In this document: in pieces, positions 1 to 47,123 of the stretch
Position numbering within the stretch: position 1 is the first letter of the stretch
Layout: the number at the start of each line of letters is the position of its first letter
Assembly (NCBI GenBank): GCA_028751095.1
Contig: JAQZCZ010000005.1
Location: 1-47,123, forward strand
Length of the DNA stretch: 47,123 nt
From: Euryarchaeota archaeon Ods01
Lineage (GTDB): Archaea; Halobacteriota; Halobacteria; Halobacteriales; Halorutilaceae
Direction: 5' to 3'
Notes under the pieces: model-generated
What the model saw: only the letters and a program-made list of their open reading frames with translations
Database searches by the model: none
Told to the model about the DNA's origin: nothing
Position numbers and translations under genes: made by a program

Positions 1-1521
1 CTCGGAAGGCACGGCGTGTTTGGCAACGCGGTCGGCGAGGAAACCGACGATATCCTCTTCGTCGACAGAAACGCCATCCTCCGTTTCGACGAATACCTTG
101 ACGCGTTCGCTTCCCGGGCGGTCGGGGTCAGGGACGCCGACCGTTGCACCGCGCGCCACGTCGGGATGGGCGTGCAGTTCCTCGTCAACCTCCTCGGTGT
201 AGACCTTGAGACCCGAGACGTTTATCATGTTCTTGACGCGGTCCACGACGTAGAAACGTCCGTCCTCGTCGAGACGGACGAGGTCGCCCGTACGCACAAA
301 GCCGTCGTCGAACTGTTCGTCGCCATCGACGTAACCCTTCATCCGCTGTGGTCCGTCAAGGAGCATCTCGGCGGCAACGTCGCCGCCTGCCGCTTGGTCG
401 AGCGGCACGTCGTCGCCTGTCTCTGGGTCACGTAGACGGACGCGGGTATCGGGTACGGGAACGCCGACGGTAGGATGGTCGTAGCCGAGTTCGCGTTTCG
501 ACGTTCCGGCTATCGACTCGACGAGTCCTTCGATATCGAAATGCGTGACGGGCGACATCTCGGACAGTCCGTATCCCTGCGTCATCCCCCGCGCGCGTTC
601 CTCGAAGTCGTCGCGTGTCTCGGAGGCGAGCGGCGCGGAACCCGAGATACCGACCACATCCATCTCGGCATCCATCTCCATGAACTGTGTTGGCACGCCG
701 ATGACGGCGGTCGGGTCACGTTCGTGTACCGTCTCGACCGCGCCCTCGGTATCGCGCGGGTCGGAGACGAGTAACTGTGACACGCCCATGCTGACGAAGG
801 CGTGCGCCATCGAATGACCGTATGCGTGGTAGAGCGGAAGGGCGTTCAGTATCTCGGCGTTACCCCGCATGACAGACGCGGCGCGCGACATCGAAGCCTC
901 GACCTGCATCGCGTTCGCGGCTACGTTCCTGTGCGTCAACATACAGCCCTTGGGCGTTCCGGTCGTGCCGCCCGTGAACAGGACCGTATGAACGTCCTCG
1001 GTCGGGTCAACGTCGCGTGGTTCGAGGGGTTCGGCTTCGTCAACGGCGTCCCAGAAGGATTCGCCGGTATCACCGCCGACACAGACGACCGCTCCGGTGT
1101 CGAGCGCATCCTCAAGCTCGGCGGCGAGGTCGGCGTACTTCTCGGCGGCGACGATAGCTTCTGGCTCAAGCTTGCTCAGGTTCTTGACGAGCGTCTCAGT
1201 GTTTTCGAGGGGCGAGACGGGGACGTTCGTAGCGCCCGCAACCGAGGCGGCATAGCTCGTTACGACGAACTCGACCGAGGTCGGTAGAACCGAGACTACC
1301 GCGTCGTCGCGTCCGACTCCGCGTTCGTATAGAGCGCCCGCTAGACGCCGCGCGGCGTCCCACGTCTCTCCGTATGTCGTCTCTTCGCCGTCCTGTACCA
1401 ACCCCATCTCGGGATACTCGTCGGCAGCTTCGCGTAGAAGGTGATGGACGGCTTCATCGGGGTAGTCGAGGCTGTGGCTTATTCCGTAGTCTTCGTACAC
1501 AGAGTTCCAAGGAACGTTCAT
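1..1521 (-). CDS. AMP-forming acyl-CoA synthetase / ligase, C-terminus truncated by window edge
   Basis: Reverse-strand reading from ATG at 1521 (MNVPWNSVYEDYGISHSLDYPDEAVHHLL...) contains the AMP-binding motif LFTGGTTGTPKGCMLTH, YGLSE and the hinge region TGDLVRLDEDGRFYVVDRVKNMINVSG. It has no stop before base 1, so it is missing from the ORF track. Confidence 0.9.
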   Translation of the reverse strand, partial: MNVPWNSVYEDYGISHSLDYPDEAVHHLLREAADEYPEMGLVQDGEETTYGETWDAARRLAGALYERGVGRDDAVVSVLPTSVEFVVTSYAASVAGATNVPVSPLENTETLVKNLSKLEPEAIVAAEKYADLAAELEDALDTGAVVCVGGDTGESFWDAVDEAEPLEPRDVDPTEDVHTVLFTGGTTGTPKGCMLTHRNVAANAMQVEASMSRAASVMRGNAEILNALPLYHAYGHSMAHAFVSMGVSQLLVSDPRDTEGAVETVHERDPTAVIGVPTQFMEMDAEMDVVGISGSAPLASETRDDFEERARGMTQGYGLSEMSPVTHFDIEGLVESIAGTSKRELGYDHPTVGVPVPDTRVRLRDPETGDDVPLDQAAGGDVAAEMLLDGPQRMKGYVDGDEQFDDGFVRTGDLVRLDEDGRFYVVDRVKNMINVSGLKVYTEEVDEELHAHPDVARGATVGVPDPDRPGSERVKVFVETEDGVSVDEEDIVGFLADRVAKHAVPSE

Positions 1522-1602
1522 CGATACGTAAGAGACGGTTGTATCGATAGTGAGTTCTGCCGTGTATAGAAGGCTTTTATTGCTGGAGTTCATCTGGCGC
1601 AT

Positions 1603-2268
1603 ATGCGGTACTACCAGTACGTCCTCAGACCCCCTGGAGGTTACTTCCATCCGTCGGAGGAGGATATCCTTGATGGGATAGACGCCGAGAGAGAGGCTAT
1701 CCTGCACGTCTCGTTACTGTCAGACCGTGACGGTGTCGTCGTGTACAGATGTAGAGGTGCCCACGACGAGCTTCAAGAACGGCTAGACGAGCAGTCTGAG
1801 ATAGTCGAAAGCGAGATATTCAATACCCAAAACGGCGACGACTTCAACCTTTACGTCCGTTTCAAGCCAGGAAGTCCGGTAACCGACCTTCTCGAACTCG
1901 CCGACGAGAACGGACTGATAATCGACACCCCGTTCGAGTTCAAGGACGGAGGTATCGAGATGACCGTGGTCGGAAAGAACGAACGCGTACAGGAGTCGCT
2001 CCCTGACTTCATGCGGCTGACCGAGGAAGCCGAGACGGTCCTGAACCAAGTCGGGAGGTACGCTCCTGAGGAAAGCGACCTCGAACGCGCACTAACCGAG
2101 AGACAGCGGGAGGTCGTGGAGGCGGCTGTCGCGGTTGGCTACTACGACAACCCACGGCAGGCGACCCACGAAGACGTTGCGGAACGCCTCGACTGCACGG
2201 CGAGTACAGCAGGAGAGCATCTCCGTAAGGCGGAGGCGAAGGTCATGCCGCGGACGGTCGACAGATAA
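1603..2268 (+). CDS. HTH_10 (bacterio-opsin activator-like) transcriptional regulator
   Basis: C-terminal LTERQREVVEAAVAVGYYDNPRQATHEDVAERLDCTASTAGEHLRKAEAKV is a typical HTH_10 domain. Confidence 0.88.
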   Translation: MRYYQYVLRPPGGYFHPSEEDILDGIDAEREAILHVSLLSDRDGVVVYRCRGAHDELQERLDEQSEIVESEIFNTQNGDDFNLYVRFKPGSPVTDLLELADENGLIIDTPFEFKDGGIEMTVVGKNERVQESLPDFMRLTEEAETVLNQVGRYAPEESDLERALTERQREVVEAAVAVGYYDNPRQATHEDVAERLDCTASTAGEHLRKAEAKVMPRTVDR

Positions 2269-2323
2269 ACAGCCTGTTATAGAGGGAGCAAGCCACTTCC
2301 CGATAATCCGTCTATAGACGTGT

Positions 2324-2887
2324 ATGTCACTGCAAGACATAGACCGTTACTTCGAGATGGAAGCCGAAGAGCTACGCGACGAACTCGACAACCTCCTAGA
2401 AGACATAGAAGGACAGGTAGAGACGCTCGTCGAGGAGCGACCCGACGACCTTCCGCGTCTGATGGAGAAGCTCGACGAGACAGACGCCGCAGAGTTCGCC
2501 GAGGAGGAGCCGGAGCTTGCCGACAGGTTCCAAGACTTCCTCTGGGACCTGACCGAGAGCTTCATAGCCGCGAACGAAGACCTGCGCGAGAATATCACGC
2601 AGGGAGCGACGGTCAACTTCACCGCAAGCGACTCGCCGATGGAGGGGCATCTCTACGTTGACGACGAAGAACAGACCCTCGACGGCGGACCCGGACAGGT
2701 CGACGGAGCCGACCTTCATATCTCGGGCGACTCGAACACGCTCGTCGGTATGCTGACCGGCTCGACCGACCTTGTGCAGGGATTCATGGCGGGCGAGTTC
2801 GAGATGGACGGCGACGTTGATACAGGCATGGAGCTAGCGTCGGTCCTCGAACCCGTCTACGACGAACTCGGAGGAGACGCCGCATAG
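2324..2887 (+). CDS. SCP2 sterol/lipid-binding domain protein
   Basis: C-terminal half HLYVDDEEQTLDGGPGQVDGADLHISGDSNTLVGMLTGSTDLVQGFMAGEFEMDGDVDTGMELASVL resembles SCP2. It is followed immediately by the acyl-CoA dehydrogenase gene. Confidence 0.7.
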   Translation: MSLQDIDRYFEMEAEELRDELDNLLEDIEGQVETLVEERPDDLPRLMEKLDETDAAEFAEEEPELADRFQDFLWDLTESFIAANEDLRENITQGATVNFTASDSPMEGHLYVDDEEQTLDGGPGQVDGADLHISGDSNTLVGMLTGSTDLVQGFMAGEFEMDGDVDTGMELASVLEPVYDELGGDAA

Positions 2888-2888
2888 G

Positions 2889-4097
2889 ATGAAGCTAAAC
2901 GACGAGCGCCGTTTCTTCCGTGACAGCCTCCGCGAGTTCCTTGAGGAGGAGATAGCGCCCGACGTTGAGGAAAAGGACCAAGAGGCGCTGTCGAAGGAGG
3001 AGGTCATCGACTACCAGACGACGATGAAGGAGCAACTCGGCATCGGATTCTCGCCCGACGTAGCCGAGGATTACTGGGGTGACCTCGCATTCTACGGTAT
3101 CGGCTCCGAGGAGATTTCGCGCGTCTGGCCCTCGCTCAACGTCACGCTAAACATGTCGTTCCCCGCGATGTTCGTCGAGTACGCCTCCGACGAGACGAAG
3201 GACGCGATGATGGGGAAGCTCGAATCCGCTGAGATAATCGGCGGACTCGCCGTGAGCGAACCTAAGAGCGGGACGGATACGGTCCATCTCGGAACGACGG
3301 CGGAACCCGACGGCGACGAGTACGTCCTGAACGGGCAGAAGACGTGGGTCTCGAACGCGCCTATTGCGGACGTAATGCTCGTTGCGGCGCACAACTCGGA
3401 GACGGACGCGCGCGAGATGTTCCTCGTTGACCAGGAAAACTCGCCCTTCGAGACGAGCAAGCTCGAAAAGATAGGCTGGAAGGCATCTCCAACGGGCGAG
3501 GTCTACCTTGACGACGTGCGCGTTCCGCGCGACAACAACCTGTCGGTGATGATTTCGAACGCCGTCAAGGAGGGCAACAACCTCGGCGAGATGCTTCCGT
3601 ACCCCGACAGCGTCGTTGACCTGTTCTTCGAACTCAAGCCGCTGAACGCCATCTTCGCATTCATGCGTACGGGCATGGCGCTGATGGCGACGGGTATCTC
3701 GCAGGCGGCTCTCGAAGACTCGGTCGAGTACGCGCAGGAGCGCGAGTCGTTCGGCAAGAAGATAGGCGAGCATCAGCTGATACAGGAGAAGCTATACAAC
3801 ATGAAGGCGCAGACTGAGGCGTCGCGGCGTCTCGCCTACCACGCCATCGACCTCCTGAGCGAAGCGGACCCCGACGCGCGCCTGATGTCGTCGCTCGCCA
3901 AGGGATACGCGTGTGAGAAATGCAACGAGGTAACGTACGAGGGGATACAGATTCACGGAGCGATGGGTCTGTCGGAGGAGTATCCGCTCGAACGTTACCA
4001 CCGTGACGCACGTGTCATGACCATCCCGGACGGGACGACGGAGGTACAGAAGCTCATCGTCGGTAACGAGATGCTCGGAATGTCCGCCTACTCCTAA
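2889..4097 (+). CDS. acyl-CoA dehydrogenase
   Basis: Motifs GLAVSEPKSGTD, GQKTWVSNAPIADVMLV, YAQERESFGKKIGEHQLIQEKLYNM, QIHGAMGLSEEYPLERYHRDARVMTIPDGTTEVQKLIVGNEM. Confidence 0.95.
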   Translation: MKLNDERRFFRDSLREFLEEEIAPDVEEKDQEALSKEEVIDYQTTMKEQLGIGFSPDVAEDYWGDLAFYGIGSEEISRVWPSLNVTLNMSFPAMFVEYASDETKDAMMGKLESAEIIGGLAVSEPKSGTDTVHLGTTAEPDGDEYVLNGQKTWVSNAPIADVMLVAAHNSETDAREMFLVDQENSPFETSKLEKIGWKASPTGEVYLDDVRVPRDNNLSVMISNAVKEGNNLGEMLPYPDSVVDLFFELKPLNAIFAFMRTGMALMATGISQAALEDSVEYAQERESFGKKIGEHQLIQEKLYNMKAQTEASRRLAYHAIDLLSEADPDARLMSSLAKGYACEKCNEVTYEGIQIHGAMGLSEEYPLERYHRDARVMTIPDGTTEVQKLIVGNEMLGMSAYS

Positions 4098-4098
4098 C

Positions 4099-4560
4099 GT
4101 GTCGGCAACCTTTCCCGACGACGCGGCGGAGATACTCCAGAAGTACCTCGATGAGTCCGACGGCTTTCTTTCGGAGATGGGCGCGGAGATAACCGAACTC
4201 ACGCGCGAGAAGACGACGTTACGTCTGGATTACAGAAGGGGTGTCGCCAACTCGACCGAGCGAAGGTCGCTTCACGGGGGCGCGTTAGCTACGCTCGTCG
4301 ACTCGGCAGGAGGGCTTGCGCTCCGCCCCCATCTCGACGACCCGTTTCGTGACGGCGTTGCGACGGTCAGCCTCAACGTTGACTACCTGTCGTCAGCTAC
4401 CGACGACGTTGTTGCGGAAGCCGAGGTGATGCGCGTCGGCGGAACAGTCGGCGTTTCGAGGGTCAGAATCGAAGAACAAAATAGCAAGGAGAACGTAGAG
4501 GTGGCGGTAGGACGCGGTACTTACCGACTGTTCGGGAGCGACAAGAATGACCAAGACTGA
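4099..4560 (+). CDS. PaaI-like hotdog thioesterase (GTG start)
   Basis: RRSLHGGALATLVDSAGGLALRPHL hotdog active-site region. The gene abuts the ACAD stop. Confidence 0.8.
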   Translation: MSATFPDDAAEILQKYLDESDGFLSEMGAEITELTREKTTLRLDYRRGVANSTERRSLHGGALATLVDSAGGLALRPHLDDPFRDGVATVSLNVDYLSSATDDVVAEAEVMRVGGTVGVSRVRIEEQNSKENVEVAVGRGTYRLFGSDKNDQD

Positions 4561-4939
4561 CAAAGACCACGGGGACGAAGACCTCAACGCGGCGTTCGAC
4601 CCCGTCGGGAACATGCTCGACAGCTTGGACGAGGAACAGAAGGCGGAGATAGTCGATGAGGTTGGCGAGCGTACCGTCGAGAGACTACAGGAGAAGAACC
4701 AAGAGAAGCTTCTTAGCGACCTCGAAGGAGCGATTATAGGGAACCTTCCGGTCCTCGGAAGGTCAACGGTCGTACAGAGAAGCATACGCGTCAGCGTGCG
4801 CGAGGTGTTCGGGGACCAGACCGAGGAGATGATAGGCGACGCCGGCGACGTGGTCGTCGAACGTCTCGTCGAGGCGCATTCGGAGGAGATAGTCGAAGAC
4901 GTGATGCGGACGACCGTCCGTAAGATGAAAGAAAAGTAG
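4547..4939 (+). CDS. uncharacterised acidic protein
   Basis: ORF overlaps the end of the thioesterase gene and is co-directional; haloarchaeal-like acidic composition. Confidence 0.65.
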   Translation: MTKTDKDHGDEDLNAAFDPVGNMLDSLDEEQKAEIVDEVGERTVERLQEKNQEKLLSDLEGAIIGNLPVLGRSTVVQRSIRVSVREVFGDQTEEMIGDAGDVVVERLVEAHSEEIVEDVMRTTVRKMKEK

Positions 4940-4943
4940 CCGG

Positions 4944-5327
4944 CTACTCCGAGCGCACGAAAGGCTCGTCGACGTATCTCTTTAGCTCGTAGCCTTCGAC
5001 GGCTTCTTCCGCGTGTATACTCTGTCCGACGACCTCCGGAATACCGTCATAGCGGACGTACTCGGAGGCGGCGAGAATACCTAGAAGCACCGCGGCGACG
5101 AGAGCGCCGACGGCTACGCCGCTCAGATAGACGCCTCCGGCGGCGAGAGCGCCCGTGAAGACGGCTCCCGCGAGCAGTCTACGCCTCCTGAGACGTGCCG
5201 CCTCGCGTGCATGAGCGCCGACAACCTTAGTGCCGTCGTCCCCGGGGACAGCCACGTACGTCGGTTCATCGTCGCCGTACCGGAGTACGTCGACGGTCGT
5301 CGGCATCTCGTCGGGGTCGGGCGTCAT
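4944..5327 (-). CDS. uncharacterised two-TM protein
   Basis: 127 aa ORF with hydrophobic stretches LLAGAVFTGALAAGGVYL / VAVGALVAAVLLGILAAS. Confidence 0.65.
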   Translation of the reverse strand: MTPDPDEMPTTVDVLRYGDDEPTYVAVPGDDGTKVVGAHAREAARLRRRRLLAGAVFTGALAAGGVYLSGVAVGALVAAVLLGILAASEYVRYDGIPEVVGQSIHAEEAVEGYELKRYVDEPFVRSE

Positions 5328-5554
5328 CCGTCGTCGGCGTCGGTCCCTATCCCGTCAGCTTCGACGCCGAGTTCGCGCCGCAGGTCTTCTGTGTCCTCGA
5401 TTCCCTCGCCGTCGTCGTCGTAAGCCGCGAGTTCGGCGTCAAGGCTGGTTAACGCCTCCTGACGCGTCCCGCCGTGCGCCGAGACTCCCGTGTCTACGTC
5501 TACGGCAACCCAGACGCCCGCCTCGTGTACGAGCCGTATCTCCTGTTCGCGCAT
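5324..5554 (-). CDS. HicB-like antitoxin-family protein
   Basis: MREQEIRLVHEAGVWVAVDVDTGVSAHGGTRQEALTSLDAELAAYDDDG has the short HicB-like fold pattern. ATG at 5554; overlaps the next gene by 4 nt. Confidence 0.65.
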   Translation of the reverse strand: MREQEIRLVHEAGVWVAVDVDTGVSAHGGTRQEALTSLDAELAAYDDDGEGIEDTEDLRRELGVEADGIGTDADDG

Positions 5555-5583
5555 ACACCGTGTAGGTTGGGTGGGTTGAAGTA

Positions 5584-5952
5584 TCATTCGCGTCCGAGCG
5601 TCTTCCGTATACAGGTCGAGCCGTACGGTCCTACGTCGCCGTCGTCGAAACGGACGAAGTAGCCCGTCGAGAGCGAACGTCCGCACCGCGCGCAGTCGAA
5701 GTCGCCCTCCTTGGTCACGACCTCGTCCTCGAAGCTGACGCCGGTACCGTCAACGGAGAACCGCGCCTCGCCCTCGCCGTCGTCGCGGCTCAGAACGCCT
5801 TCGCTTTCGGCGCGGTCGATAACCTCGCGGGTTACGGCGGGCGCGTCACCGACCGCCTCCTCGATTCTGTCCATGAGTTCGGGAAGGGCGACGCCGTCGT
5901 CATCAATGCTACGGACGAGCGCCAGACCGAGACGTACCTTCTCATCAGTCAT
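5584..5952 (-). CDS. haloarchaeal DUF5830-like protein with CxxC
   Basis: VVTKEGDFDCARCGRSLSTGYFVRFDDGDVGPYGSTCIRKTLGRE. Confidence 0.7.
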   Translation of the reverse strand: MTDEKVRLGLALVRSIDDDGVALPELMDRIEEAVGDAPAVTREVIDRAESEGVLSRDDGEGEARFSVDGTGVSFEDEVVTKEGDFDCARCGRSLSTGYFVRFDDGDVGPYGSTCIRKTLGRE

Positions 5953-7875: not shown

Positions 7876-7912
7876 GTTCGGAGTTACCGCCGGATGTATT
7901 TCAAGATTGTTC

Positions 7913-27374: not shown

Positions 27375-28392
27375 CTCCCGCGAGGGGTAGCTCTATTACG
27401 AAGGCGGCTCCTCCGGCTTCGCTTTCCTCTATCCATACGTCGCCGCCGTAGCCACGTACCACGGTGTCGACGAGATGTAGACCGAATCCCGCGGCGGGAT
27501 GTTCGAGTCCCTCGGCGCTCCTCCCGAAGACGGCGTCGCGTTTCTCGGGAGGAATCCCGGGTCCGTTGTCGGCTATACGGAGACGGACGGCTTCGTCGTC
27601 AGCTTCGGCAGTAACCTCTATACGCACATCTTCGCCGCAGTGTTCGACGGCGTTGTCGAAGATGTTGCTGAGAACCGACGAGAGAAGGGTGTTCGCGCGC
27701 ACCTTGACCGACGGCATGTCGCCGACAGTGACATCGTCTATACCGTGGACGTTACGGCAACGTTCGACCTCCTCAGCGACGACCTCGTCTAGAGGGACGG
27801 TTTCGAGGTCGTCGGTTCCCTCATCGGTCACAGCTTCGACGAAGTCGCGGGCTGTCGATGTCAGGTTGACAGTGTGTTTCGTTGTCTTGAGTATACGTTC
27901 GAGTATCTCGTCGCCCTCGTCGTCAACGTGGTTGCGTAGCTCCTCCGCCCATCCGAGAACGACGTTCATATCGTTACGTATGTCGTGTCTCATGATACGG
28001 TTGACCAGAACGAGCTGTTCCTTCGTCCGTTCGAGCTGTCTCTGTGCCTCGACGGTGCCGGTTATGTCACGGACGTAGACGGAGGTACCGTCTTCGGACG
28101 GATGGACGCAGACACAGAACCATCTGTCAAGGGGTTCGTGGTAGTAATGGAACTCGTCGGATTCGTCGGACGACTTGGCGTCACGGAACCTCCGTTCGAA
28201 CTTAGTTCCGGCTAACTCAGGGAATGCGTCCCATATGGTCTCCTCAAGGAGTTCGTCCCTCGGTGTACCTAGTATCTCCTCGCCTCTGCTGTTGACGTAC
28301 GTGAAACGCCAGTCGTCGTCAAGCGCGTAGAAGCCGTCCGAAACGCGTTCGAGAACGTCGTCGGCTGTTAGGTCTTCCTTCTGTATTACCAT
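27358..28392 (-). CDS. PAS-domain sensor histidine kinase
   Basis: PAS FYALDDDWRFTYVNSRGEEILG; phosphoacceptor NRIMRHDIRNDMNVVLGWAEEL; HATPase DNAVEHCGE, IADNGPGIPPEKRDAVF, GFGLHLVDTVVRGYGG. Confidence 0.92.
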   Translation of the reverse strand: MVIQKEDLTADDVLERVSDGFYALDDDWRFTYVNSRGEEILGTPRDELLEETIWDAFPELAGTKFERRFRDAKSSDESDEFHYYHEPLDRWFCVCVHPSEDGTSVYVRDITGTVEAQRQLERTKEQLVLVNRIMRHDIRNDMNVVLGWAEELRNHVDDEGDEILERILKTTKHTVNLTSTARDFVEAVTDEGTDDLETVPLDEVVAEEVERCRNVHGIDDVTVGDMPSVKVRANTLLSSVLSNIFDNAVEHCGEDVRIEVTAEADDEAVRLRIADNGPGIPPEKRDAVFGRSAEGLEHPAAGFGLHLVDTVVRGYGGDVWIEESEAGGAAFVIELPLAGGDAGD

Positions 28393-31300
28393 GTCTTACC
28401 TCCGTTGTGCGAGTTGCCCAGCGAGACAGTTACGACGTTGCCGCGCGGCTCGTTTTCCTCAAACGACAGCGTGCCGCCTGAACGCCGGACAACCCAGTGT
28501 ACGAACCACAGTCCGAGTCCGCTTCCGTGGTAGAGAGGACCTTCTGCCTCAGCTGTCAGTACGTCGACCTCCATCTGTGGAATACGCGGTCCGTTGTCCG
28601 CGACACGGACCTCAGTCCTGTCGTCGACAACCTCAGCCGAGACAACGACCTCAGGAGTCTCGGCGTCGTTGTGGACAACGGCGTTCTCGACGAGTCCAGC
28701 GAGCGCCCTCTCAAAACGGCTGGAGACGCGTAACGTCTGCGTCTCGCCGACCTCAGCTCGTATATCGGTGTCGGGATGGTCATGGAGTGCCGAGTCAACG
28801 ACACGACGGGCGACGGCGGAAACGTCAACCTCCTCGTAGGTCGGCGACTGCGTGAGTATCTCGATTATACGGCGCTCCTTGTCTGCTTTTTCGAGCAGGT
28901 CGTCACATCTCTCGACGATTCCGTCGGTGTACCTCTCAACGGCTTCGCCGTTGGTCTCCGCAAGCGTCTGTGCGTACCCACGTACTACGTTGAGGTCGTT
29001 CCGGAGGTTATGGCGTAGGACACGGTCGATTACGCGCATATGCTGTTCGCGCTCCTTCCTTTCGGTCACGTCCTGCTGGTATCCGACGTAGTTGATGACC
29101 TCGCCCGAGTCGTCGAAGACAGGGGAGATAGCGACACGGTTCCAGAACTCGGAGCCGTCCTTGCGGTAGTTGAGGAGTTCGACCTCGACGGTATCCTCGG
29201 CATCTATCGCCTCACGCATCCTTCGGACGGGTTCAGGGTCGGTCTTCTCGCCCTGAAGGAAGCGGCAGTCACGTCCGAGAACCTCGTCCTCGGCGTATCC
29301 TGTTACTTTCTCGAAATACTTGTTCACGTAGACGAGCGGGTTGTCGCCGCTTCCGGGTTCAGATATGCTGATGCCGACGGGAGCCTCCTCGATAGCTCGG
29401 ACGCGCCGGTGAAGTTCACGCTCGCGCTCCTTGCGGTCGGTTATATCGCGCCCTATGCTCAGAACCGCCGTCTCGTCGCGGTAGGTTATCAGGCTGGAGC
29501 TAATCTCGACGGGGATACGTTCGCCGTCGGCGGTTTCGTGAGCGGTCTCGAAGTTCTGTATCCCGTCTTCGGGCATGTTTTCGATGAGGGAGCTTACTTT
29601 GTCGTCTTCGAGACCCGTATCGATATCGTACGGCGTCATAGAGAGGAGTTGGTCCCGCGGATAGCCGAGCGTCTCGACGACGGCGTCGTTGACCGACAGG
29701 AACCTGTTTTCGTCGAGACCAATCACGAATACCATATCGTTCATGCCGTCGATTAGCTCCTCGTACTCGTCGCGGGACCGACGAAGCTCCTGTTCGCGCT
29801 CCTTGCGGTCGGTGATGTCGCGCGATGTCAGAAGGACGCCGTCTAGTTCGTCGGTCGGCTCGTGTCTCCCGACCACCTCGACCCAGACAGGTGAGCCGTC
29901 GGCGCGTCTCATCCTTAGCTCTATGCCGTCGAGTTCATCGTCCCCTCCCTCGACAAGGCTGTTGAACCTCTCCAAAGCGGTGTCCATATCGTCGGGATGG
30001 ACATAGTCGAAGACGTTGTCGCCTATCCAAGCCTCTTGGTCAACCCCGAGAACGTCCTCGATCGAGGGACTGTGGTAGAGTATCGTACCATCCTCGCCGA
30101 GATGCGTAATTATGTCGGTCGTGCTGTTGACGTAAGCCTCATACCGCCTGAGTTCGCGCTCCCGTTCCCGCCTTTCGGTCACGTCATGGGCTAGGACGAA
30201 GAGCGATTCGACCTCGCCAGTACCGTCCTCAACGGGATAGATGACGCCGCTACTGACGTACTTCTCAGTTTCTCCGCCGGTGCGTTCCAGTTCCATCTCG
30301 AAATCAACGTAATCGCCCTCGGCGGCGCGGAGTATCTTCCCCTTCACCTCGTCCTCGACTCCGGTCGACCAAGGGGTTTCCCAGAAAGGTTCGCCGATAA
30401 ACTCGTCGGAGTCGACGTGGATATACTCCATCGCCTTCTGGTTAACGTCTATCAGCCGTCCGTCGGGGTCGAGAAGACCTGTGAGCGTGTTAGGGTCCTC
30501 GAAGACGGCGTCGTACCTCCGTTTCGTATTTTCGAGTTCGTCACGTTCCCTGAGTGCGCGCTCGGCAAAAGCGATGTCGTCGGCGAGTTCCTCGACGAGT
30601 TCTTTCTCATCGGCATCGAAGGCGTGTGACCTGTCGGCGTACAGGTTGAGGACGCCGTACAGTTCGCCGTCGTGTATGAGAGGTACGGCGGCGCTCGACC
30701 GGTATCCGCGTTCGAGTGCGGCGTCGCGCCAAGGCTCGTACTTCGGGTCCTCGGGTATGTTCTGCATAACCTGTGTCTCCCGCGTCCTGAACGCGCGTCC
30801 GGTAGGTCCCTGTCCGGTCGACTCCTCGTCGACGGTTATCTCGACCTCGTCGAGATAGTCGTCCTCGTAGCCCCCGGAGGCGCGCGAAACGACGTTTCCG
30901 TCTTCGTCCGCTCCGCCTATCCAAGCGAGAAGGTACGGTTCGGAGTCGGCAAGCGTCTCGCAGACGTTCCGTTCGAGTTCCTCGACCGTCGAGGCGTTGA
31001 TTACCGCGCGGTTGACACGCCGGAAGACATCGTTGACGCGCGCGAGTTCGTGGAGACGCTCCTCGACGGAGATACGTCTGGAGATACGGCGGAGAACGAC
31101 GACGGTCGAAGGCTCGCCGTTCCAGACGACGCGGACGGCGTTGAGTTCGACGGGAAACGAAGAGCCTCCGACGGTCACCCTTTCCTCGGCTCTCTCGGCG
31201 TAACCGTCGCCCGCCTCGACAGACGAGACGAGTTCGTCGACACCGTCCGTCTCCTCGAAACACGCGGCGAACTGCGCACCCGTCGCGGAGTCGGCGCTCT

Positions 31301-31808
31301 CGAAGCCAAGGCTGTCTACGGCGGCAGGGTTGGCGTAGACGACGTTTCCTTCACGCAGTACGACGACGGGGTCGAGCATGGCGTCGAGTACGGCTTCGGC
31401 GCTCGTCCCGACGGTGCTAGTCCGACCGAGAGAAACGGCACTTTCTACGAGTCTTCCGAGGCGTTTCCAGCGGTCGGCAGAGTCCACCGAGAGACAGTCA
31501 GTAACGCGTGCCGAGACTGCACGCGAGACGGATTCGTCGTCTTCCTCGTCGGTGAGAAGCAAGAACGGCATGTCGGGACGGCGGACACGGAGGGCTTCAA
31601 GGAGAACGACGCCCGAAACGTCGGGCAGGTCGGCGTCGCTAACCACGCAGTCGAAGCCGTCGTCGAGGAGTTCGACAGCGTCGGCGACGGTGCGCGCCGT
31701 CACAACTTCGGCGGCGGCGTGTTCGGGGAGGTGACGGACGGCTTCTTGGGCACGCTCCTCGTCCGCCGTGACATAGAGCAGGCTGACCTCCCCTATTTCG
31801 TGTGTCAT
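28386..31808 (-). CDS. multidomain histidine kinase: REC-like, PAS, GAF, several PAS, LOV-like PAS, HisKA/HATPase
   Basis: N-terminal receiver-like FDCVVSDADLPDVSG; GAF LLAWIGGADEDGN; last PAS GRDCRFLQGEKTDPEPVRRMREAI...NYRKDGSEFWNRVAISPV...YVGYQQDVTERK; RVLRHNLRNDLNVVRGYA; VADNGPRIPQMEV. Confidence 0.93.
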   Translation of the reverse strand: MTHEIGEVSLLYVTADEERAQEAVRHLPEHAAAEVVTARTVADAVELLDDGFDCVVSDADLPDVSGVVLLEALRVRRPDMPFLLLTDEEDDESVSRAVSARVTDCLSVDSADRWKRLGRLVESAVSLGRTSTVGTSAEAVLDAMLDPVVVLREGNVVYANPAAVDSLGFESADSATGAQFAACFEETDGVDELVSSVEAGDGYAERAEERVTVGGSSFPVELNAVRVVWNGEPSTVVVLRRISRRISVEERLHELARVNDVFRRVNRAVINASTVEELERNVCETLADSEPYLLAWIGGADEDGNVVSRASGGYEDDYLDEVEITVDEESTGQGPTGRAFRTRETQVMQNIPEDPKYEPWRDAALERGYRSSAAVPLIHDGELYGVLNLYADRSHAFDADEKELVEELADDIAFAERALRERDELENTKRRYDAVFEDPNTLTGLLDPDGRLIDVNQKAMEYIHVDSDEFIGEPFWETPWSTGVEDEVKGKILRAAEGDYVDFEMELERTGGETEKYVSSGVIYPVEDGTGEVESLFVLAHDVTERRERERELRRYEAYVNSTTDIITHLGEDGTILYHSPSIEDVLGVDQEAWIGDNVFDYVHPDDMDTALERFNSLVEGGDDELDGIELRMRRADGSPVWVEVVGRHEPTDELDGVLLTSRDITDRKEREQELRRSRDEYEELIDGMNDMVFVIGLDENRFLSVNDAVVETLGYPRDQLLSMTPYDIDTGLEDDKVSSLIENMPEDGIQNFETAHETADGERIPVEISSSLITYRDETAVLSIGRDITDRKERERELHRRVRAIEEAPVGISISEPGSGDNPLVYVNKYFEKVTGYAEDEVLGRDCRFLQGEKTDPEPVRRMREAIDAEDTVEVELLNYRKDGSEFWNRVAISPVFDDSGEVINYVGYQQDVTERKEREQHMRVIDRVLRHNLRNDLNVVRGYAQTLAETNGEAVERYTDGIVERCDDLLEKADKERRIIEILTQSPTYEEVDVSAVARRVVDSALHDHPDTDIRAEVGETQTLRVSSRFERALAGLVENAVVHNDAETPEVVVSAEVVDDRTEVRVADNGPRIPQMEVDVLTAEAEGPLYHGSGLGLWFVHWVVRRSGGTLSFEENEPRGNVVTVSLGNSHNGGKTW

Positions 31809-39098: not shown

Positions 39099-40115
39099 TT
39101 AATCCGACGAGTAGGCGACCGATTCGCCCGTCTCCAGACCGTTCCTGACGGCGGCGTGGACACGCGCCTCGCCGACGACCCAGTCGCCCGTGACGTAGAC
39201 TCCTTCGTCGGCGGCGGAGTCGACCACGCCGCGCCCCACGCGTCCGTCTGCGAGCGCGTACCTCCAGCCTTGGTGGTCGGTCCAGTCGGGTTGGGCGAGA
39301 CGGTCGTCGTCCATGATATCGGCGGTGAGTTGGGCGAGTTCGGCGACGTTTTCGTCGGGCGGCGCGTCGTACATCTCGGTCGACCAGTCGGGCGCGGCTT
39401 GAACGACCAAGACGGACTCGCCGTCGGGAACATGCTCGGGCTTGCAGTCCTCGCGGGATATCCAGCCAACGTCGTGCCGGTCGTCGGTGTTTATCAGCGC
39501 GTAGTAAGGGACATCGACCTCGAAGCCGTATCCGAGGACGGCGGTCCATACAGTCCTGTACGGAACCTCAGCCGCGGCTTCGCCTAGACGGTCAACTGCG
39601 GCGACGCCCGTCTCCGACAGGAGTTCGGCGGTCTGTGGCGCGGGAGGGTTGACGACGAGGGCGTCGAAGGGACCGCGTTCGTCCCCGCCGGCGGTGAGTC
39701 GCCAGCCGTCTTCGTGGCGCACGTCTTCGACTCGCGTCCGGCGTTCGACGGTCGCGTCGGTCGCCCCGAACAGGTGTTTCGCCAGCCGCGTTATACCGTC
39801 TTCGTAGCTCCATTTGGTCTCGTCTTCGTCGCGTCCCTCAGAGACGTTTCCGTCGCCGTCGAAGGTCCATACGGCTCCGTCAACCTCAACGAGTCCGTCG
39901 TCAAACCTCCCGATTAGTTCGTTGACACGTTCGTCCGTGTCCTTGATGTAGTTGGCACCGTAGTCGTAGACGGTTCCGTCACGTCGGCGCGCGGCGGCAC
40001 GTCCACAGACACCTCCGGACTTCTCGAAGACCGTCATGTCGGCGTCGGTGGCGTTATCGACGACGTAAGCCGCGGCGGCGGCACCTGCGCCGGCACCGAT
40101 TACTCCCAGTTTCAT
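39099..40115 (-). CDS. FAD-dependent oxidoreductase, amine oxidase/renalase-like
   Basis: MKLGVIGAGAGAAAAAYVVDNATDADMTVFEKSGGVCGRAAARRRDGTVYDYGANYIK; C-terminal VYVTGDWVVGEARVHAAVRNGLETG. Confidence 0.85.
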   Translation of the reverse strand: MKLGVIGAGAGAAAAAYVVDNATDADMTVFEKSGGVCGRAAARRRDGTVYDYGANYIKDTDERVNELIGRFDDGLVEVDGAVWTFDGDGNVSEGRDEDETKWSYEDGITRLAKHLFGATDATVERRTRVEDVRHEDGWRLTAGGDERGPFDALVVNPPAPQTAELLSETGVAAVDRLGEAAAEVPYRTVWTAVLGYGFEVDVPYYALINTDDRHDVGWISREDCKPEHVPDGESVLVVQAAPDWSTEMYDAPPDENVAELAQLTADIMDDDRLAQPDWTDHQGWRYALADGRVGRGVVDSAADEGVYVTGDWVVGEARVHAAVRNGLETGESVAYSSD

Positions 40116-40166
40116 GGTCGGTCTTCGGATCCGCGCCGGAATAGGCTCACGGTACCGTCCGCCGAC

Positions 40167-40580
40167 TCAGTCGCCCGTACGGTTCACAGGCTCGCCGACG
40201 CCTTCGACCGAACAACCGTCGGCATGGTCACATCTCGTGTAGAGTTCGTCGTAGTCGTCGGTTACAGCGTCGTCGCCCTGGGTCAACAGCCGCCGGAGGT
40301 CCTCGTTCCTCGATTCGAGTCCTTCGACCCTCTGCTCTATCCCCCGCAACTCGTCGAGTTCGAGCCTCGCATCGCGTAGCTCCTGCTCCGTCTCGTCCAG
40401 CTCCTCTTCAAGTTCCGCGATACGTTCGTTCCTTTCGTCAACGGCGTTGCCCACGCCGTCCATCTGTGTCTGGTAGTAGACGGTAACCCCCGCGGCACCG
40501 ACCACGGAGACAACCGAGACAGCTATCAGGAACGCGTTTATGCGTCCGCCTATCTCGCCCATCCACCGGTAGTAACTCAC
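40167..40580 (-). CDS. single-TM coiled-coil protein
   Basis: INAFLIAVSVVSVVGAAGVTVYY TM then heptad-rich RNERIAELEEELDETEQELRDARLELDELR. Confidence 0.7.
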   Translation of the reverse strand: MSYYRWMGEIGGRINAFLIAVSVVSVVGAAGVTVYYQTQMDGVGNAVDERNERIAELEEELDETEQELRDARLELDELRGIEQRVEGLESRNEDLRRLLTQGDDAVTDDYDELYTRCDHADGCSVEGVGEPVNRTGD

Positions 40581-41048: not shown

Positions 41049-41110
41049 CATGTAAAATGATGAGAAACCTTTAAGTGGGATGGAGTTATTGGCATATGTG
41101 TAGATAGAAC

Positions 41111-41278: not shown

Positions 41279-41967
41279 CTAATCTTCTCTCCGTTTAACG
41301 CGTCAGCTATCTCCGAGAGCCACGCACGCCGGTCGTCGGATTCGACGAACGCCGACGCCGCGCCCGCCGCGTCTGCGCCGAGTTCGAGTGCGCCCTCTAC
41401 GTCGGTTGCGTCGCTGATTCCGCCCCCGACAAGGACGCGCGTCCGTGGGTTGGCGTCCTCGACAGCCGCAACGAACCTCTCGACGAGTTCGGGGCGGGCG
41501 TCGACGACGGAGCGTCCCGTACCTATGTCGTCGGGATTCTCGAAAAGGAGGCAGTCAGGGTCGAACGCCAGAGCGGCGCACGCCTTTTCGACGGTGTCGA
41601 CGCAGACGACCGACTCCAGACCGTAGTTGCCACAAGCCGAGACCTTCTCGGCTACGTCGTCGAATCCGTCGCGGCTCTCGGGATGGTTGATTAGAACGCC
41701 TCCCACGCCCGCATCTGCGAGGGTCGGAAGGGCGACAGCGCCGTTTCCACGTCCCTCGCACGAGGCGTCGACCGACTGGGCGAAGACGGGGAGCGCCGTT
41801 CCCTCCGCGACACGGGCGAGGTCGGGAGTCTGGGGAGCGACGGCGAACGACGCCCCGGTCTCCTCGGCTACTTCTTCGATGGTCTTGACGAGCGCGAGTC
41901 CGTCGTCCCCCGCGGTCCCGTCGTAAATCTTGAAGTTGATGAGGAAGTACGGATACTCCGGTCTCAT
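41275..41967 (-). CDS. tpiA: triosephosphate isomerase (archaeal type, divergent)
   Basis: LINFKIYDGTAG (Lys), VAPQTPDLARVAEGTALPVFAQSVDA, LINHPESRDG (His), LLFENPDDIGTG (Glu), VLVGGGISDATDVEGALELGADAAG. Confidence 0.82.
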   Translation of the reverse strand: MRPEYPYFLINFKIYDGTAGDDGLALVKTIEEVAEETGASFAVAPQTPDLARVAEGTALPVFAQSVDASCEGRGNGAVALPTLADAGVGGVLINHPESRDGFDDVAEKVSACGNYGLESVVCVDTVEKACAALAFDPDCLLFENPDDIGTGRSVVDARPELVERFVAAVEDANPRTRVLVGGGISDATDVEGALELGADAAGAASAFVESDDRRAWLSEIADALNGEKIS

Positions 41968-42013
41968 GGGTCAAGAAGAAGCGCGGCACGTTTCAGGGTT
42001 CGGGTAGAGCGGG

Positions 42014-42460
42014 TCAGTCGTCGCCTACGCGGTAGTTCTTTTCGAGTCTCGGATTCTCCATGAACGGATTGGCTATACGTATGAGGTCGACGACGAAGTC
42101 CCTGCCGAGGTAACGGTAGGTCGTCAGTAGCGTCGACAGAACGACCAAGCCCGCGAGACCGAACGCCGCCTGTCCGAGAAGGACGTTACCCTGCGTCGTG
42201 AGGTAGACGCCGGCGGCGACGCTCACGAAGAAGACCAGCCCGTACAGCTTGAGTTCAATTACGAGCATCTTGAGCGTCAGGTCCTCGAACTTACGGTTGA
42301 CCGTGGCAATCAGTCCGCGCTCTAGGTTTTCGACGCGGTCCATACGGTCGTCGACATCTTCGAGCGTCTCCTCTACGTTTCTGAGCGTCTCGTCGGCGTT
42401 TATCGCGGCTTCTGTCAGGCTCTCTGCTTTCTGACGTGCGTTCCGTAGGTCGTCGAACAT
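42014..42460 (-). CDS. membrane protein with N-terminal coiled coil
   Basis: Coiled-coil N-terminus followed by two TM segments (MLVIELKLYGLVFFVSVAAGVYL; LLGQAAFGLAGLVVLSTLL). Confidence 0.65.
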   Translation of the reverse strand: MFDDLRNARQKAESLTEAAINADETLRNVEETLEDVDDRMDRVENLERGLIATVNRKFEDLTLKMLVIELKLYGLVFFVSVAAGVYLTTQGNVLLGQAAFGLAGLVVLSTLLTTYRYLGRDFVVDLIRIANPFMENPRLEKNYRVGDD

Positions 42461-42608
42461 CTACCCGAGGAACGCGTCGGACGTATTAAACCGCGGCGTT
42501 ACGGTGCCGTGGGTTCGGGGAGGAGCGCGCCACGGAACGCCTTGAACCGTCCGAATCCGCTCCACGGCTCGAAAGGTTGATATATCAGAAACCTAAACCA
42601 CCCATCGG

Positions 42609-43166
42609 GTGAGATATATCTCGGTGCAAACAGTCGAATCAGGGGACGGAGACGGAGGCAAGAGCGGAGAAGACAACAGTGACGATGAGACGCCGCCGGC
42701 TGTGCTGGCGACAGCGGCTGTCTGCGCCGTCGTCGTAGGGGCGATTGCGGCTTACGCCGCGAGCAACGTCAACACCGTGGCTATGGCAGGGGCTTTCGTG
42801 GTCGCCGCGGGGGGTTCGGGATACTACCTGTCGCAGAAGGAGCCGCCCGCCGCGGTCGCCGGAGCGGCGTCTTACATCTCCGCCGTCATCCTCCTGTTCA
42901 CGCCTTTCGCGCTCTACCTCCCCGACATCGTGATACGCGGCGAGGATGTCCGTCTGTTCGCCGAGGACGTGGAGGCAAGCGACGTGACGATAGGCGGGGA
43001 CGCCCTGTTCGAGGCGGGCGGCTTCAGCATCGGAAACGTCGCACAGGGAAACGTCGACGGAGTGATACAGCTGGTCTTCTGGTTCGTAATCTTCAGCGTC
43101 GCCGCCGTCCTCCTTCTCGTGGTCGGCAAGGTCCTCAAGACAACGGCGAAGAAACAGGAGTCTTAG
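42609..43166 (+). CDS. multi-TM uncharacterised protein (GTG start)
   Basis: Four hydrophobic segments (AVLATAAVCAVVVGAIAAYAA..., VVAAGGSGYYL, AAVAGAASYISAVILLFTPFALYL, LVFWFVIFSVAAVLLLVVGKVL). Confidence 0.65.
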   Translation: MRYISVQTVESGDGDGGKSGEDNSDDETPPAVLATAAVCAVVVGAIAAYAASNVNTVAMAGAFVVAAGGSGYYLSQKEPPAAVAGAASYISAVILLFTPFALYLPDIVIRGEDVRLFAEDVEASDVTIGGDALFEAGGFSIGNVAQGNVDGVIQLVFWFVIFSVAAVLLLVVGKVLKTTAKKQES

Positions 43167-44350
43167 TCGAGAACCTCGCGGACCGCCTCGGCGGTAGCGT
43201 CCGCCTTCGTCGTGTCGCCGGCGGCTTCGAGAGCCGCATCGGGGTCCTTGAGAAGATGTCCGGTCGTGACACAGACTACCTTCTCGGAGTCGTCGATAAC
43301 GCCTTCGCGGTAGAGCTTCTTGACGCCTGCGACGCTTGTGGCGCTCGCCGGCTCCGCACCGATTCCCTCCATCCGCGCTAGCTTGACCTGAGCGTCCATC
43401 AGCTCCTCGTCGGTGACGCTCGTCGCCGTGCCGTCGGTTTCGTCGATAGCCTCGCGCGCCTTGGGTGCGTTGACGGGGTCACCGATACGTATCGCGGTCG
43501 CCTTCGTCTCGGGCGACTCGAACGGTTCGAGAGGTCCGCTCTTCTGGAGAGCGCCGACGAGAGGCGACGCTCCCTCCGCCTGCACGCCCGTCATCATCGG
43601 CATCTCATCTATGATTCCGGCGTGGTAGAACTCGCGGAATCCCTTGTAGATAGCGCTGATGTTTCCGGCGTTTCCGATGGGAAGAACGACGCGGTCAGGT
43701 ATCTCCCAGTTTAGCTGTTCGAGAACCTCGAACGCTATCGTCTTCTGCCCCTCAAGCCTGTACGGGTTGATGGAGTTTAGGACGTAGAAGAAGCCCTCGT
43801 CGGCAAGGTCACGGACAATACGGAGGCATTCGTCGAAGTTGCCGTCGAGTTCGATGAGGTGCGCGCCGTGCATCAACGCCTGCGCGACCTTACCCATCGC
43901 CACCTTGTCCTGCGGCAGGAGGACGACGGCGGGTATGTCGGCGGCGGCACCGTAGGCGGCGAGCGCCGCGCTCGTGTTGCCCGTCGAGGCGCACGCGACG
44001 CGTTCGATACCGAGTTCGATTGCTTTCGAAACGCCGACCGTCATACCGCGGTCCTTGAACGAGCCGGTCGGGTTCATTCCCTCGTGCTTGACATGCATCT
44101 CGACACCTATCTCGTCCGAAAGCTTCGATGCGTCGTAGAGCGGCGTTCCGCCCTCGTGTAACGTGACGCTGTCGGCGGTTTCGAGCGGAAGGACCGACGA
44201 GTAACGCCAGACGCCGAGCGGTCCTGTGAAGTCGGACCGCGAGGGTATCTCCTCGTAACGTACCTCAAGCAGACCTCCGCAGTCGCACGTGTAGCGCGGT
44301 TCGTTGCTGCTGTACCTCTCCCCGCATTCGATGCACTGTAGCCATGTCAT
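43163..44350 (-). CDS. thrC: threonine synthase
   Basis: [29 protein letters not shown] zinc ribbon; [20 protein letters not shown] (PLP Lys); [36 protein letters not shown]. Confidence 0.95.
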
Positions 44351-47082
44351 AGCTCTTCCTCAATGATTCCCGTGGACTTCTCCAGAGTCTCGTCTATACG
44401 TTCGGCGTCCGGACCGCCGCCCTGACCGAACTCCGGAGAGCCGCCGCCGTCGCCTCCGAGTAGCGACGCGAGTTCGCCTGCGACACTCCCCGCGTGTAGC
44501 TCGACGCCTTCGGGGACGCCGACGACGACGCCTGCGCTTCCATTCTTACCCGCGAAGACGGCGACCTTTCCTTCCTCTACGACAGAGTTAGCCGCGGCTC
44601 GGAGTTCGTCGATGTCGGCGTCCATACGTTGTACGACAACGGGGACGCCGTCGACAACCTCCTCCTCGGCGGCTTCGGTACGTAGCTCGGCGAGTTCCTC
44701 GCGCAACTCCTCTATCTCCTTGCCGCGTTCCTTCCATTCCTCGAAGAAACGTTCCGCCGTCTCGACAAGGTCGTCGCGCGGAACGCCGAAGACTTCGGCG
44801 GTTTCGGAGACGACGCGGTCCGCCTCCTGCGCCGCCTCTACCGCCGCGGTTCCGGCGGAGAAGACGAGACGTTCGACGCCGTCCTGTATCCGCTCGGTGT
44901 TACGTATCTTGATGAAGCCGACCTCGCCCGTCCGTCCGACGTGCGTACCGCCGCACGCCTGCACGTCCTCGTCAACCTCGACGACGCGTATCTCCTCGCC
45001 CGCCGGTATGCCACCCTGATACAGGTCGAAGCCGTACTCCTCCTCCGCCTCGTGTCTGTCGAACCATTCGTCCTTGACACGGACGTTCTCACGGACGGTC
45101 CTGTTCGCCTCACGCTCTATCTCGCGTACCTCGTCCTCTGAGAGACGGCGGTGGTGCGTGATATCGATACGGGACGACTCGACGCCCTTCTGCGCACCCG
45201 CCTGACGGACGTGGTCGCCGAGGACACGCCGCGCGGCGTCTATGACGATATGCGTCGCCGTATGGTTACGCATCAGGGCGCGGCGGCGGTCTACGTCGAC
45301 CTGTCCGCGGACTACGTCGCCCTTGCTCAGCGGCTTGTCGGTCCGGTGGAAGACGACGCCGTCACGTTTCTGTACGTCCTCGACGTGCGCCACGTCGCCG
45401 TTTTCGAGAACGCCCGTGTCGGCGGGCTGTCCACCGCCCTCGGGGTAGAAACGCGTCTGGTCAAGGACGAGTTCGTAGGAATCGTCATCCTCGTCGTAGT
45501 AGGTATTGAGGACGACAGCCTCGAACTCGGTCCGGTCGGCGTCGTCGTAGAACAGGAGGTCGGTTTCGGGTAGGTCGTCATCGACCTCCTTCTCGTCACC
45601 GGCTTCCTCGACGCTCGCGCGTTCCTCGTGCCTGTCGGCGACCTGTGCGTAGAAGTCGTCGGGAACGTCGACCTCGACGCCTTCTTCCTCGGCTATCTCG
45701 GCGACCGTGTCAGGCTGGAGACCGTGCGAATCGTACATCTCAACGAGTTCGTCGTCGGGTATCGCCCCTTCGTCGGCGTACTCCTCCGCCTTCCGACGAA
45801 CGAGTCGCTTACCACGTTCGAGCGTCTCATCGTACTTTTCGACCTCCTTACGGACGACATCCTCGATTACGTCACGGTTTCTGTATCCGAGACGTTTTGC
45901 CTGTTCGTCGACGAGGTCTTCGAGCGGAACGTCGAGACCGATTTCGTCGGCGAGGCGTACGGTGCGGCGTAGCACGAGACGCGCAAGGTAGCCCGTGCCG
46001 ACGTTCGAGGGAACGATGCCGTCGCCGAGCATGTAGGCGAGTACGCGTGTGTGGTCGGCGACCGCGAAGGCGTTCTCGACGGGCGAAAGGATTTCGTCGA
46101 GTTCTTCGAGCGTCAAGCCGACATCCTCGGCGACCTGTTCGCGGACGGCGCGCAGGTCGTCAACCTCGTCAGCGTCCATCTTACCCGCGAGACGCGCTAT
46201 GTCAGCGAGTATCTCGTCGTCGGCACGCTCGATTCCCGCGGCGTCGAGAATCTCGTCAACCATCTCAGGGTAGACAGCCTCGTAGACCGTGGGCGTTCCT
46301 TGGCTCAGCCACGTAAACCGCTCCAAGCCGTAGCCCGTGTCGACGATGTAGTTGTCCATCTTGGAGTACGTCTTCCCGTCCTTCATCTCGTACTCGCCGT
46401 CGGGGTCCTGTTCGAGGTCCATGAAGACGAGCGTCGCAACCTCAGCACCACGCAGTATGACCTCGAAGGCGGGACCGGCGTTTCCTCCGCCGACCCAAGG
46501 CGACTCGACGTAGGTAACCTCGTCAAGGGGCGCGCCCAACGAACCGAGGAACTCGTCGCAGTGACGGACAGTATCTTCCTTCCAGTAAACCTCGCCCGCG
46601 TACGCGCCTCCGTCGCCGCGTGAGTTGAAGGCATGGTGCGCCATCATCTCGAAGGCAAGCGTATGGCGTCCCGTCTTTCCGACGTTGTCGATATCCTGCA
46701 TACGGATACACGGCTGCGAAATCGTGAGCGGATTGGCGGGCGGCGGGGTTTCGCCGCTCGTCACCAGAGGCTGGAAGTCGTAGATGGAGGCTTGGGTCAG
46801 AAGAACGTCGTCACGCCACCGTGAGGCGTCGACGGGGTACGGGTCGACGCGTGTGTGGTCGCGGTTCTCGAAGAAAGACAGAAACTCCTCGCGCATCTCC
46901 TCAAGCGTGTATTCGTCGTCGAAAGGCGGGTTTCCGATAAACGAATACTCGTCACAAGGGGGTTCACCGCACGTCTCCTTCGAGGCGTCGCGCGTCCAGA
47001 AGTAACGTCCGCAGTCGGGGCAGTTCTTCCGGACGAATCCGTTCTCCTCGAAGAAGTCAAGGCGGTACTCGTCCTCGTCCAT
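44347..47082 (-). CDS. alaS: alanyl-tRNA synthetase (archaeal type)
   Basis: [17 protein letters not shown]...[68 protein letters not shown]. 4-nt overlap with thrC. Confidence 0.96.
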
Positions 47083-47123
47083 ACCCGACGTTTCCGCGGC
47101 ACGTCTAAAACGTTTTCTGAAAG

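Follow-up and report, generated by a model that had tools for sequence, protein, structure and literature searches.

Is the near-absence of GATC from a 47 kb contig of Ods01, an uncultured member of the salt-loving archaeal genus Halorutilus, a product of base and codon composition, or has the word been selected against, and if so, by what?

Depletion of GATC and other palindromes

The window (the whole stretch of 47,123 nt analysed here) contains exactly 2 GATC sites (Table 1), while 142.7 are expected under a maximal-order Markov model (O/E 0.014). The preliminary description had placed two sites at 30060 and 40128; that count was exact, and the Markov ratio confirms the scarcity. Within the called genes of the window GATC occurs once, compared to a mean of 89.3 (sd 8.1, minimum 63) in 500 synonymous codon shuffles. 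GGCC is also found once in the window, with 243.7 expected under the same Markov model. The scarcity of GGCC, equal to that of GATC, had been overlooked earlier, as had that of at least six to seven further palindromes.

Table 1. Positions of the window, its remaining GATC and GGCC sites, and the region compared with Halorutilus salinus
Feature	Position	Strand	Description
Whole window (contig C69)	1..47123		GATC and GGCC both nearly absent
Residual GATC	30060..30063		TCCTCGATCGAGGGA; within CTCGATCGAG; in PAS/GAF histidine-kinase gene 28386-31808 (-)
Residual GATC	40128..40131		CTTCGGATCCGCGCC; within CGGATCCG; in gap between ORFs 39099-40115 (-) and 40167-40580 (-)
Sole GGCC of the window	3127..3130		244 expected
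alaS region alignable to H. salinus	43179..47123		83% DNA identity; 14 GATC in H. salinus, 0 retained

The depletion holds when the count is extended to the genome. In the 1.62 Mb covered (of a 1.87 Mb genome; the assembly is 88.7% complete), GATC was observed 71 times against 5151 expected by the Markov model (O/E 0.014), and GGCC 209 times against 7942 (O/E 0.026). Other words are also strongly avoided: TCGCGA (15 observed, 899 expected), CTCGAG (29, 1365), GAGCTC (13, 253), GGCGCC (82, 1107), GACGTC, GCWGC and CCWGG. All of these further words are palindromic restriction-type sites; the palindromes GTAC, TCGA and GCGC show no depletion. In genes genome-wide, there were 35 GATC versus 3650 in codon-shuffled sequence (ratio 0.010) and 140 GGCC versus 7219 (0.019), and the corresponding ratios were 0.017 for CTCGAG, 0.017 for TCGCGA, 0.008 for GAGCTC, 0.079 for GCWGC and 0.130 for CCWGG. 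At least nine palindromes are depleted beyond the Markov expectation and, for the words tested, beyond the codon expectation. Since GATC is just one of these, an account based on a single system is too narrow.

Codon choice around GATC

Codons had been proposed to bend around GATC, and the counts in the window bear this out. After a codon ending in G, isoleucine is encoded by ATC once, by ATA 104 times and by ATT 18 times; in other contexts the numbers are 173, 79 and 20. GAG-ATA occurs 44 times and GAG-ATC never, and aspartate codons preceding a C are GAC in 201 cases and GAT in none. The codon shuffles and these context counts agree that the depletion reflects selection, not base or codon bias.

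Location of the remaining sites

Nearly half of the GATC sites in the genome (35 of 71) are in five small, mobile-looking islands of 11.9 kb together, three of which contain integrase or replication genes. Five more are in a probable rRNA region, and the 1.60 Mb core has the other 31. The integrated islands are depleted in GATC only about 2-fold – the old core is depleted, and recent acquisitions less so. The depletion is thus a property of the genome and not of islands, as first described, with the islands being places where GATC survives. The island integrase, the island replication protein and the methyltransferase of contig C83 had no relatives among viral contigs, and a search for CRISPR arrays as a pointer to viruses found none that was convincing. 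The idea that residual sites are functional long palindromes was rejected: 3 of the 31 lie in 8-bp palindromes, which was judged near chance.

Relatives and other haloarchaea

The same depletion was found in a sister genome (G037) and in the MAG Ods04, and depletion of GGCC, CTCGAG and GGCGCC is common to the genus. The Halorutilus genome has the lowest GATC-context density among 147 haloarchaeal genomes, about a quarter of which also show GATC depletion; in the present data GATC is scarce at Haloferax and some Haladaptatus loci. Depletion among the 147 tracks neither Dam-like nor Mrr_cat genes. The close relative that is not depleted in GATC is the one carrying a Dam-like enzyme.

In the alaS region, 7 of the 14 GATC sites of H. 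salinus read GACC in Ods01. Because GATC is replaced mostly by GACC, the loss is not a product of C-to-T deamination, and the words that deamination would yield, GATT and AATC, show no enrichment; deamination of methylated GATC was ruled out on both grounds.

Candidate restriction-modification genes

Four methyltransferases were found: two of Type II amino-type, on contigs C83 and C10 and each part of a restriction-modification pair, one CTAG-type orphan, and one Type IIG. The 88.7%-complete assembly has no D12 methyltransferase (PF02086; Dam/DpnII/MboI-type) scoring above the cut-off; the sole PF02086 match was below the cut-off, in an ORF for a Trm5-like tRNA methyltransferase, and was rejected as a Dam. 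A motif scan followed by a Pfam search found no C5 methyltransferase (PF00145; Sau3AI-type) in the assembly. Selection by a restriction-modification, epigenetic or defence system recognising GATC had been suggested earlier. The kind of selection fits, the other depleted words being of restriction type, but a long-standing resident GATC system is not supported, with neither a D12 nor a C5 methyltransferase found in the assembly.

The nuclease of the C83 pair has a PD-(D/E)xK motif, FPDMILREGAMIEVK, and matches RE_NgoPII at 17 bits (E 0.0034); its homologue in genome G011 matches at 22.1 bits (E 9.4e-5), both below the Pfam cut-off of 25. The structure model of the C83 nuclease is of very low confidence (pLDDT 34.5). 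This nuclease is found in only 2 of the 147 genomes, both GGCC-depleted. The C83 amino-methyltransferase and NgoPII-like nuclease are a plausible candidate for a resident GGCC system of predicted specificity.

The C10 pair was rejected as a GATC system: G069 and G117, which carry it, are rich in GATC, and the relative G009, whose nuclease is 73% identical, is not depleted. The loci of the carriers gave no clear recognition word for C10, and the predicted fold of its nuclease (pLDDT 84) had no PDB match.

Possible causes of the depletion

The probable explanation is restriction-site avoidance, with selection either still at work or stopped very recently. Halorutilus cells would have been exposed repeatedly to Type II restriction enzymes, and a chromosomal site would be dangerous whenever protection is incomplete, as may happen when a system is gained or lost, when the methyltransferase dose is low, or during DNA exchange. 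Given this hazard, site-free synonymous and intergenic variants would be favoured until the core was nearly free of sites. For GGCC, the cause may be the resident C83 methyltransferase and NgoPII-like nuclease. For GATC, the selector may be a Type II system absent from the incomplete assembly, recently lost, or present in other members of the population; since the assembly yielded neither a Dam-family nor a C5 methyltransferase, it should be one of these or methyl-directed. Codon-shuffle residuals of about 1% would imply a synonymous divergence of roughly 1% or less since selection relaxed, compared to 83% DNA identity between the species.

Some observations sit poorly with this explanation. 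The four methyltransferase entries (C83, C10, the CTAG orphan and the Type IIG) face about nine depleted words, with no GATC methyltransferase found in the assembly. G009 is GGCC-depleted though it lacks the C83 nuclease, and the roughly 2-fold depletion of the islands is odd if a GATC nuclease now acts on incoming DNA.

A less likely but credible driver of GATC avoidance is methyl-directed restriction, in which Gm6ATC is cut by Mrr, DpnI-like or wH-HNH enzymes. If a Dam methyltransferase came in with a virus or from a mating partner, the chromosome would become marked for suicide, and GATC would be lost even though the cell's own enzymes never methylated it. Haloarchaea have Gm6ATC-dependent Type IV enzymes, and the Mrr of Haloferax restricts dam-methylated DNA (PMC11037411; PMC7230728); among 42 genomes carrying DpnI-like methyl-directed systems, GATC falls short of expectation in 38 (PMC4687349). 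The Ods01 genome itself encodes an Mrr_cat protein, and the GATC-poor Haloferax and Haladaptatus loci and the Dam-like enzyme of the non-depleted relative are in keeping with this idea. However, Mrr_cat is present in 115 of the 147 genomes, unlinked to depletion (Fisher p 0.51), and in the non-depleted relative too, and Mrr was rejected as a discriminating cause since it is nearly everywhere. Scanning the assembly with a crude HNH motif gave no convincing wH-HNH candidate, and the methyl-directed account leaves GGCC, CTCGAG and the rest unexplained.

Somewhat more speculative is that the nine or so palindromes were purged mainly via enzymes the cell does not itself carry, through DNA exchange in cell-fusion mating, or through contact with other cells of the population bearing rotating restriction-modification systems. 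If true, the chromosome would be kept universally restriction-proof, and the imprint would be at the level of the population rather than the cell.

It is unlikely that the depletion is only a slowly fading memory of ancestral systems now gone. Avoidance without an encoding system is common and has been read as the trace of a lost system (PMC4687349), restriction-modification genes are patchy in Halobacteria (PMC6471742), and systems matching the genus-wide depletion of GGCC, CTCGAG and GGCGCC were not found. But codon-shuffle residuals of 1–2% for GATC, GGCC, CTCGAG, TCGCGA and GAGCTC leave almost no time for decay, and between species only 83% identical in DNA the sites should have refilled after an old loss.

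That a mutational or compositional bias, or an artefact of the assembly or library, produced the depletion with no selection against the word is very improbable: all haloarchaea are low in CTAG, and in Ods01 several 4-mers are mildly deviant, but this is set against the 35 genic GATC where codon-preserving shuffles expect 3650, the normal GTAC, TCGA and GCGC, the loss of isoleucine ATC only after G and of aspartate GAT only before C, the unenriched GATT and AATC, and the like pattern in G037 and Ods04.

Comparison with known systems and significance

Avoidance of orthodox Type II sites in prokaryotic genomes is well described (Rusinov et al. 2015, PMC4687349), and as in those cases, palindromic recognition words in Ods01 are far below expectation, some of them without a resident system. 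Ods01 differs in having five separate words at 1–2% residual simultaneously, and in the added demonstration from codon shuffling and from leftovers in mobile islands and the probable rRNA region. GATC is scarce in Haloferax, Natronomonas pharaonis and some Halobacterium (Ouellette et al. 2018, PMC5867850), which are also of the class Halobacteria and have low GATC without a Dam match. The lowest chromosome in that table has 0.50 GATC/kb (PMC5867850), while Ods01 is about tenfold lower (0.044/kb, 71 in 1617 kb) and lacks GGCC as well. SuaI/M.SuaI of Sulfolobus acidocaldarius is an archaeal GGCC restriction system (m4C; PMC5809426) in which, as predicted for the C83 pair, a nuclease accompanies an amino-type methyltransferase; the C83 nuclease weakly resembles the NgoPII family. 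Haloviruses of the HF1 group are without GATC and CTAG (PMC7230728) – like Ods01, they combine complete loss of GATC with that of other palindromes in the haloarchaeal world, but they are viruses restricted by a host, while in Ods01 it is the cell's own core genome that is purged.

The phenomenon, restriction-site avoidance, is known; the Ods01 case is unusually strong and involves many words. Most discussions of site avoidance concern one or two words, depleted to a modest degree, whereas Ods01 has five words at 1–2% and several at 8–13% of the codon-shuffled expectation, with few matching methyltransferases. In practice, the depleted words predict which restriction enzymes will hardly cut Ods01 DNA. 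The lineage, which includes an isolated relative (H. salinus), offers a candidate GGCC system, and the streamlined archaeal core is a good test of how restriction-modification acts on its hosts – whether by an enzyme that is resident, by ones since lost, or by way of the population.

GATC avoidance and codon choice

The window has only two GATC sites, at 30060-30063 and 40128-40131, exactly as the preliminary description had counted them, while a maximal-order Markov model predicts 142.7. Synonymous codons were also permuted among the called genes of the window, with proteins and codon usage kept; the genes contain one GATC, against a mean of 89.3 (sd 8.1, minimum 63) in 500 shuffles. Codons do bend around the site, as had been suggested, and strikingly so: genome-wide, isoleucine is ATC 19 times, ATA 3756 times and ATT 801 times after a codon ending in G, versus 7997, 2771 and 717 in all other contexts. 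Aspartate is GAT in 14 of 6318 cases before C versus 4944 of 32399 in all other contexts.

Genome-wide counts cover 1.62 Mb of the assembly, which totals 1.87 Mb in 133 contigs and is 88.7% complete; 71 GATC were observed where 5151 were expected. The genome has 0.044 GATC/kb, against a lowest value of 0.50 among the published closed haloarchaeal chromosomes compared (PMC5867850).

Other depleted words

GGCC, overlooked in the preliminary description, is as absent from the window as GATC (1 observed, 243.7 expected; 209/7942 in the 1.62 Mb). Observed/expected counts in the 1.62 Mb were 15/899 for TCGCGA, 29/1365 for CTCGAG, 13/253 for GAGCTC, 82/1107 for GGCGCC and 211/1464 for GACGTC, and ratios were 0.15 for GCAGC, 0.125 for GCTGC, 0.24 for CCAGG and 0.27 for CCTGG. 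A systematic palindrome scan returned the same words as the most extreme ungapped palindromes, with GRGCYC/GWGCWC-like variants surrounding GAGCTC among the depleted words; GACGCC, AGCGCC, CCCGAG and TCGCGG had normal or high counts. Codon shuffling gave the same depletion for the words to which it was applied. GTAC, TCGA and GCGC were not depleted, and CCCGGG was over-represented 3.5-fold genome-wide (340 vs 96, maximal-order Markov).

Residual GATC sites

Five stretches totalling 11.9 kb hold 35 of the 71 GATC, and three of them carry an integrase or replication gene. Another 5 lie within the initial 3.3 kb of L008, a stretch without a long ORF that we take to be a putative rRNA region. The rest of the core has 31 GATC in 1.60 Mb; the depletion is therefore a core-genome property with the islands as the exception, which upholds the earlier view that it belongs to the genome and not to an island. 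Within the islands, depletion is about 2-fold for GATC (35/67) and 3-fold for GGCC (11/35), so recent arrivals are not GATC-free.

Islands with GATC and candidate restriction-modification pairs
Feature	Location	Remarks
Small island with GATC	L103:1-2750	integrase or replication gene
Small island with GATC	L129:200-1800	integrase or replication gene
Small island with GATC	L002:1-3300	integrase or replication gene
Small island with GATC	L083:4850-7160	
Small island with GATC	L050:2300-4240	
C83 pair: amino-methyltransferase, NgoPII-like nuclease	L083:2-1584	convergent genes
C10 pair: methyltransferase, nuclease	L149:647-2502	nuclease: PADLOC Type II, E 1.4e-9

Methyltransferases and nucleases

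No D12 methyltransferase above the cut-off and no C5 methyltransferase was found in the 88.7% complete assembly. The genome encodes three N6_N4 methyltransferases (C89, C83 and C10, named by contig) and one Type IIG-like enzyme (L025). Family and setting suggest that C89 is a CTAG-type orphan, the specificity being taken from the literature (PMC10609329).

The C83 methyltransferase adjoins a PD-(D/E)xK nuclease whose matches to RE_NgoPII are sub-threshold. NgoPII recognizes GGCC. Among 147 haloarchaeal genomes this nuclease has one relative (L232 in G011, 74% identity), also adjoining a methyltransferase of C83 type. Both carriers are among the four GGCC-depleted genomes (Fisher probability 6/10731, hand-computed, kinship ignored), and the pair is a candidate GGCC system common to two distant GGCC-depleted genomes.

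The C10 system occurs in ten haloarchaeal genomes (this one and nine others), and its distribution tracks neither GATC nor GGCC depletion. In three carriers a second, diverged copy of the nuclease lies next to it. The C10 methyltransferase is ~50% identical to methyltransferases of small enterobacterial plasmids. L079:5681-7666 encodes a 661-aa protein with an Mrr_cat domain and further regions, adjoining a seryl-tRNA synthetase-like ORF.

Distribution among haloarchaea

Density was measured as SSGATCSS contexts per Mb, in raw figures with G+C differences left in. On these raw densities the genome is the lowest of 147 (2.7/Mb), its sister G037 is second (11/Mb), and 41 fall below 220/Mb, so GATC poverty recurs within the class. 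GGCC poverty, taken as a GGCC-to-CCGG context ratio of about 0.05 or less, is rarer and was found only in the Halorutilus genus and G011.

Across the 147 genomes, GATC poverty showed no association with Dam-like genes (4/41 poor vs 21/106 others, p 0.22) and none with Mrr_cat (p 0.51); its association with other D12 genes was weak (9/41 vs 7/106, p 0.015, kinship ignored). A strong D12 gene is absent from 28 of the 41 poor genomes. In G031, G044, G075, G077 and G130 a Dam-like gene lies ~1-4 kb from an Mrr_cat gene, possibly as a linked cassette; two of these five are GATC-depleted.

The alanyl-tRNA synthetase shares 85% identity with that of Halorutilus salinus F3-133 (order Halorutilales), a haloarchaeon reported to be streamlined (PMC10134839). 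In H. salinus, a 22.7-kb locus is depleted in GGCC (2/86), CTCGAG (0/16), GGCGCC (0/13) and GCAGC (1/15), and not in GATC (67/106). Of the 14 GATC that H. salinus has in an aligned 3.9 kb, none is conserved in the present genome, and 7 read GACC. MAG Ods04 has GATC 1/20. The word profile of G009, of the same genus, appears to agree with H. salinus; G009 carries a Dam-like enzyme that has no obvious nuclease next to it, together with three pairs: one of the TdeIII family, one of C10 type and a third. The C5 enzyme of G037 is ~52% identical to one adjoining a HaeII-family nuclease. In G025, from the family's other genus, neither CTCGAG nor GAGCTC is depleted.

Cause of the depletion

The preliminary description proposed long-term selection by a restriction-modification or similar epigenetic or defence system recognizing GATC, which is right in kind but too narrow in scope, and its specific enzyme is unsupported. 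Type II selection is favoured as the overall cause because the other depleted words need it anyway; for GATC it would come from a system that the assembly lacks, that was lost very recently, or that other cells carry. Methyl-directed restriction is the other candidate cause of the GATC depletion; haloarchaea possess it (PMC11037411, PMC7230728), and it has been associated statistically with avoidance of GATC (PMC4687349). An old, since-lost system is unlikely, because the ~1% residuals in genes mean, by estimate, that synonymous sites have diverged by ~1% or less from the time when selection was relaxed. The phenomenon is a known one, here unusually deep and multi-word.
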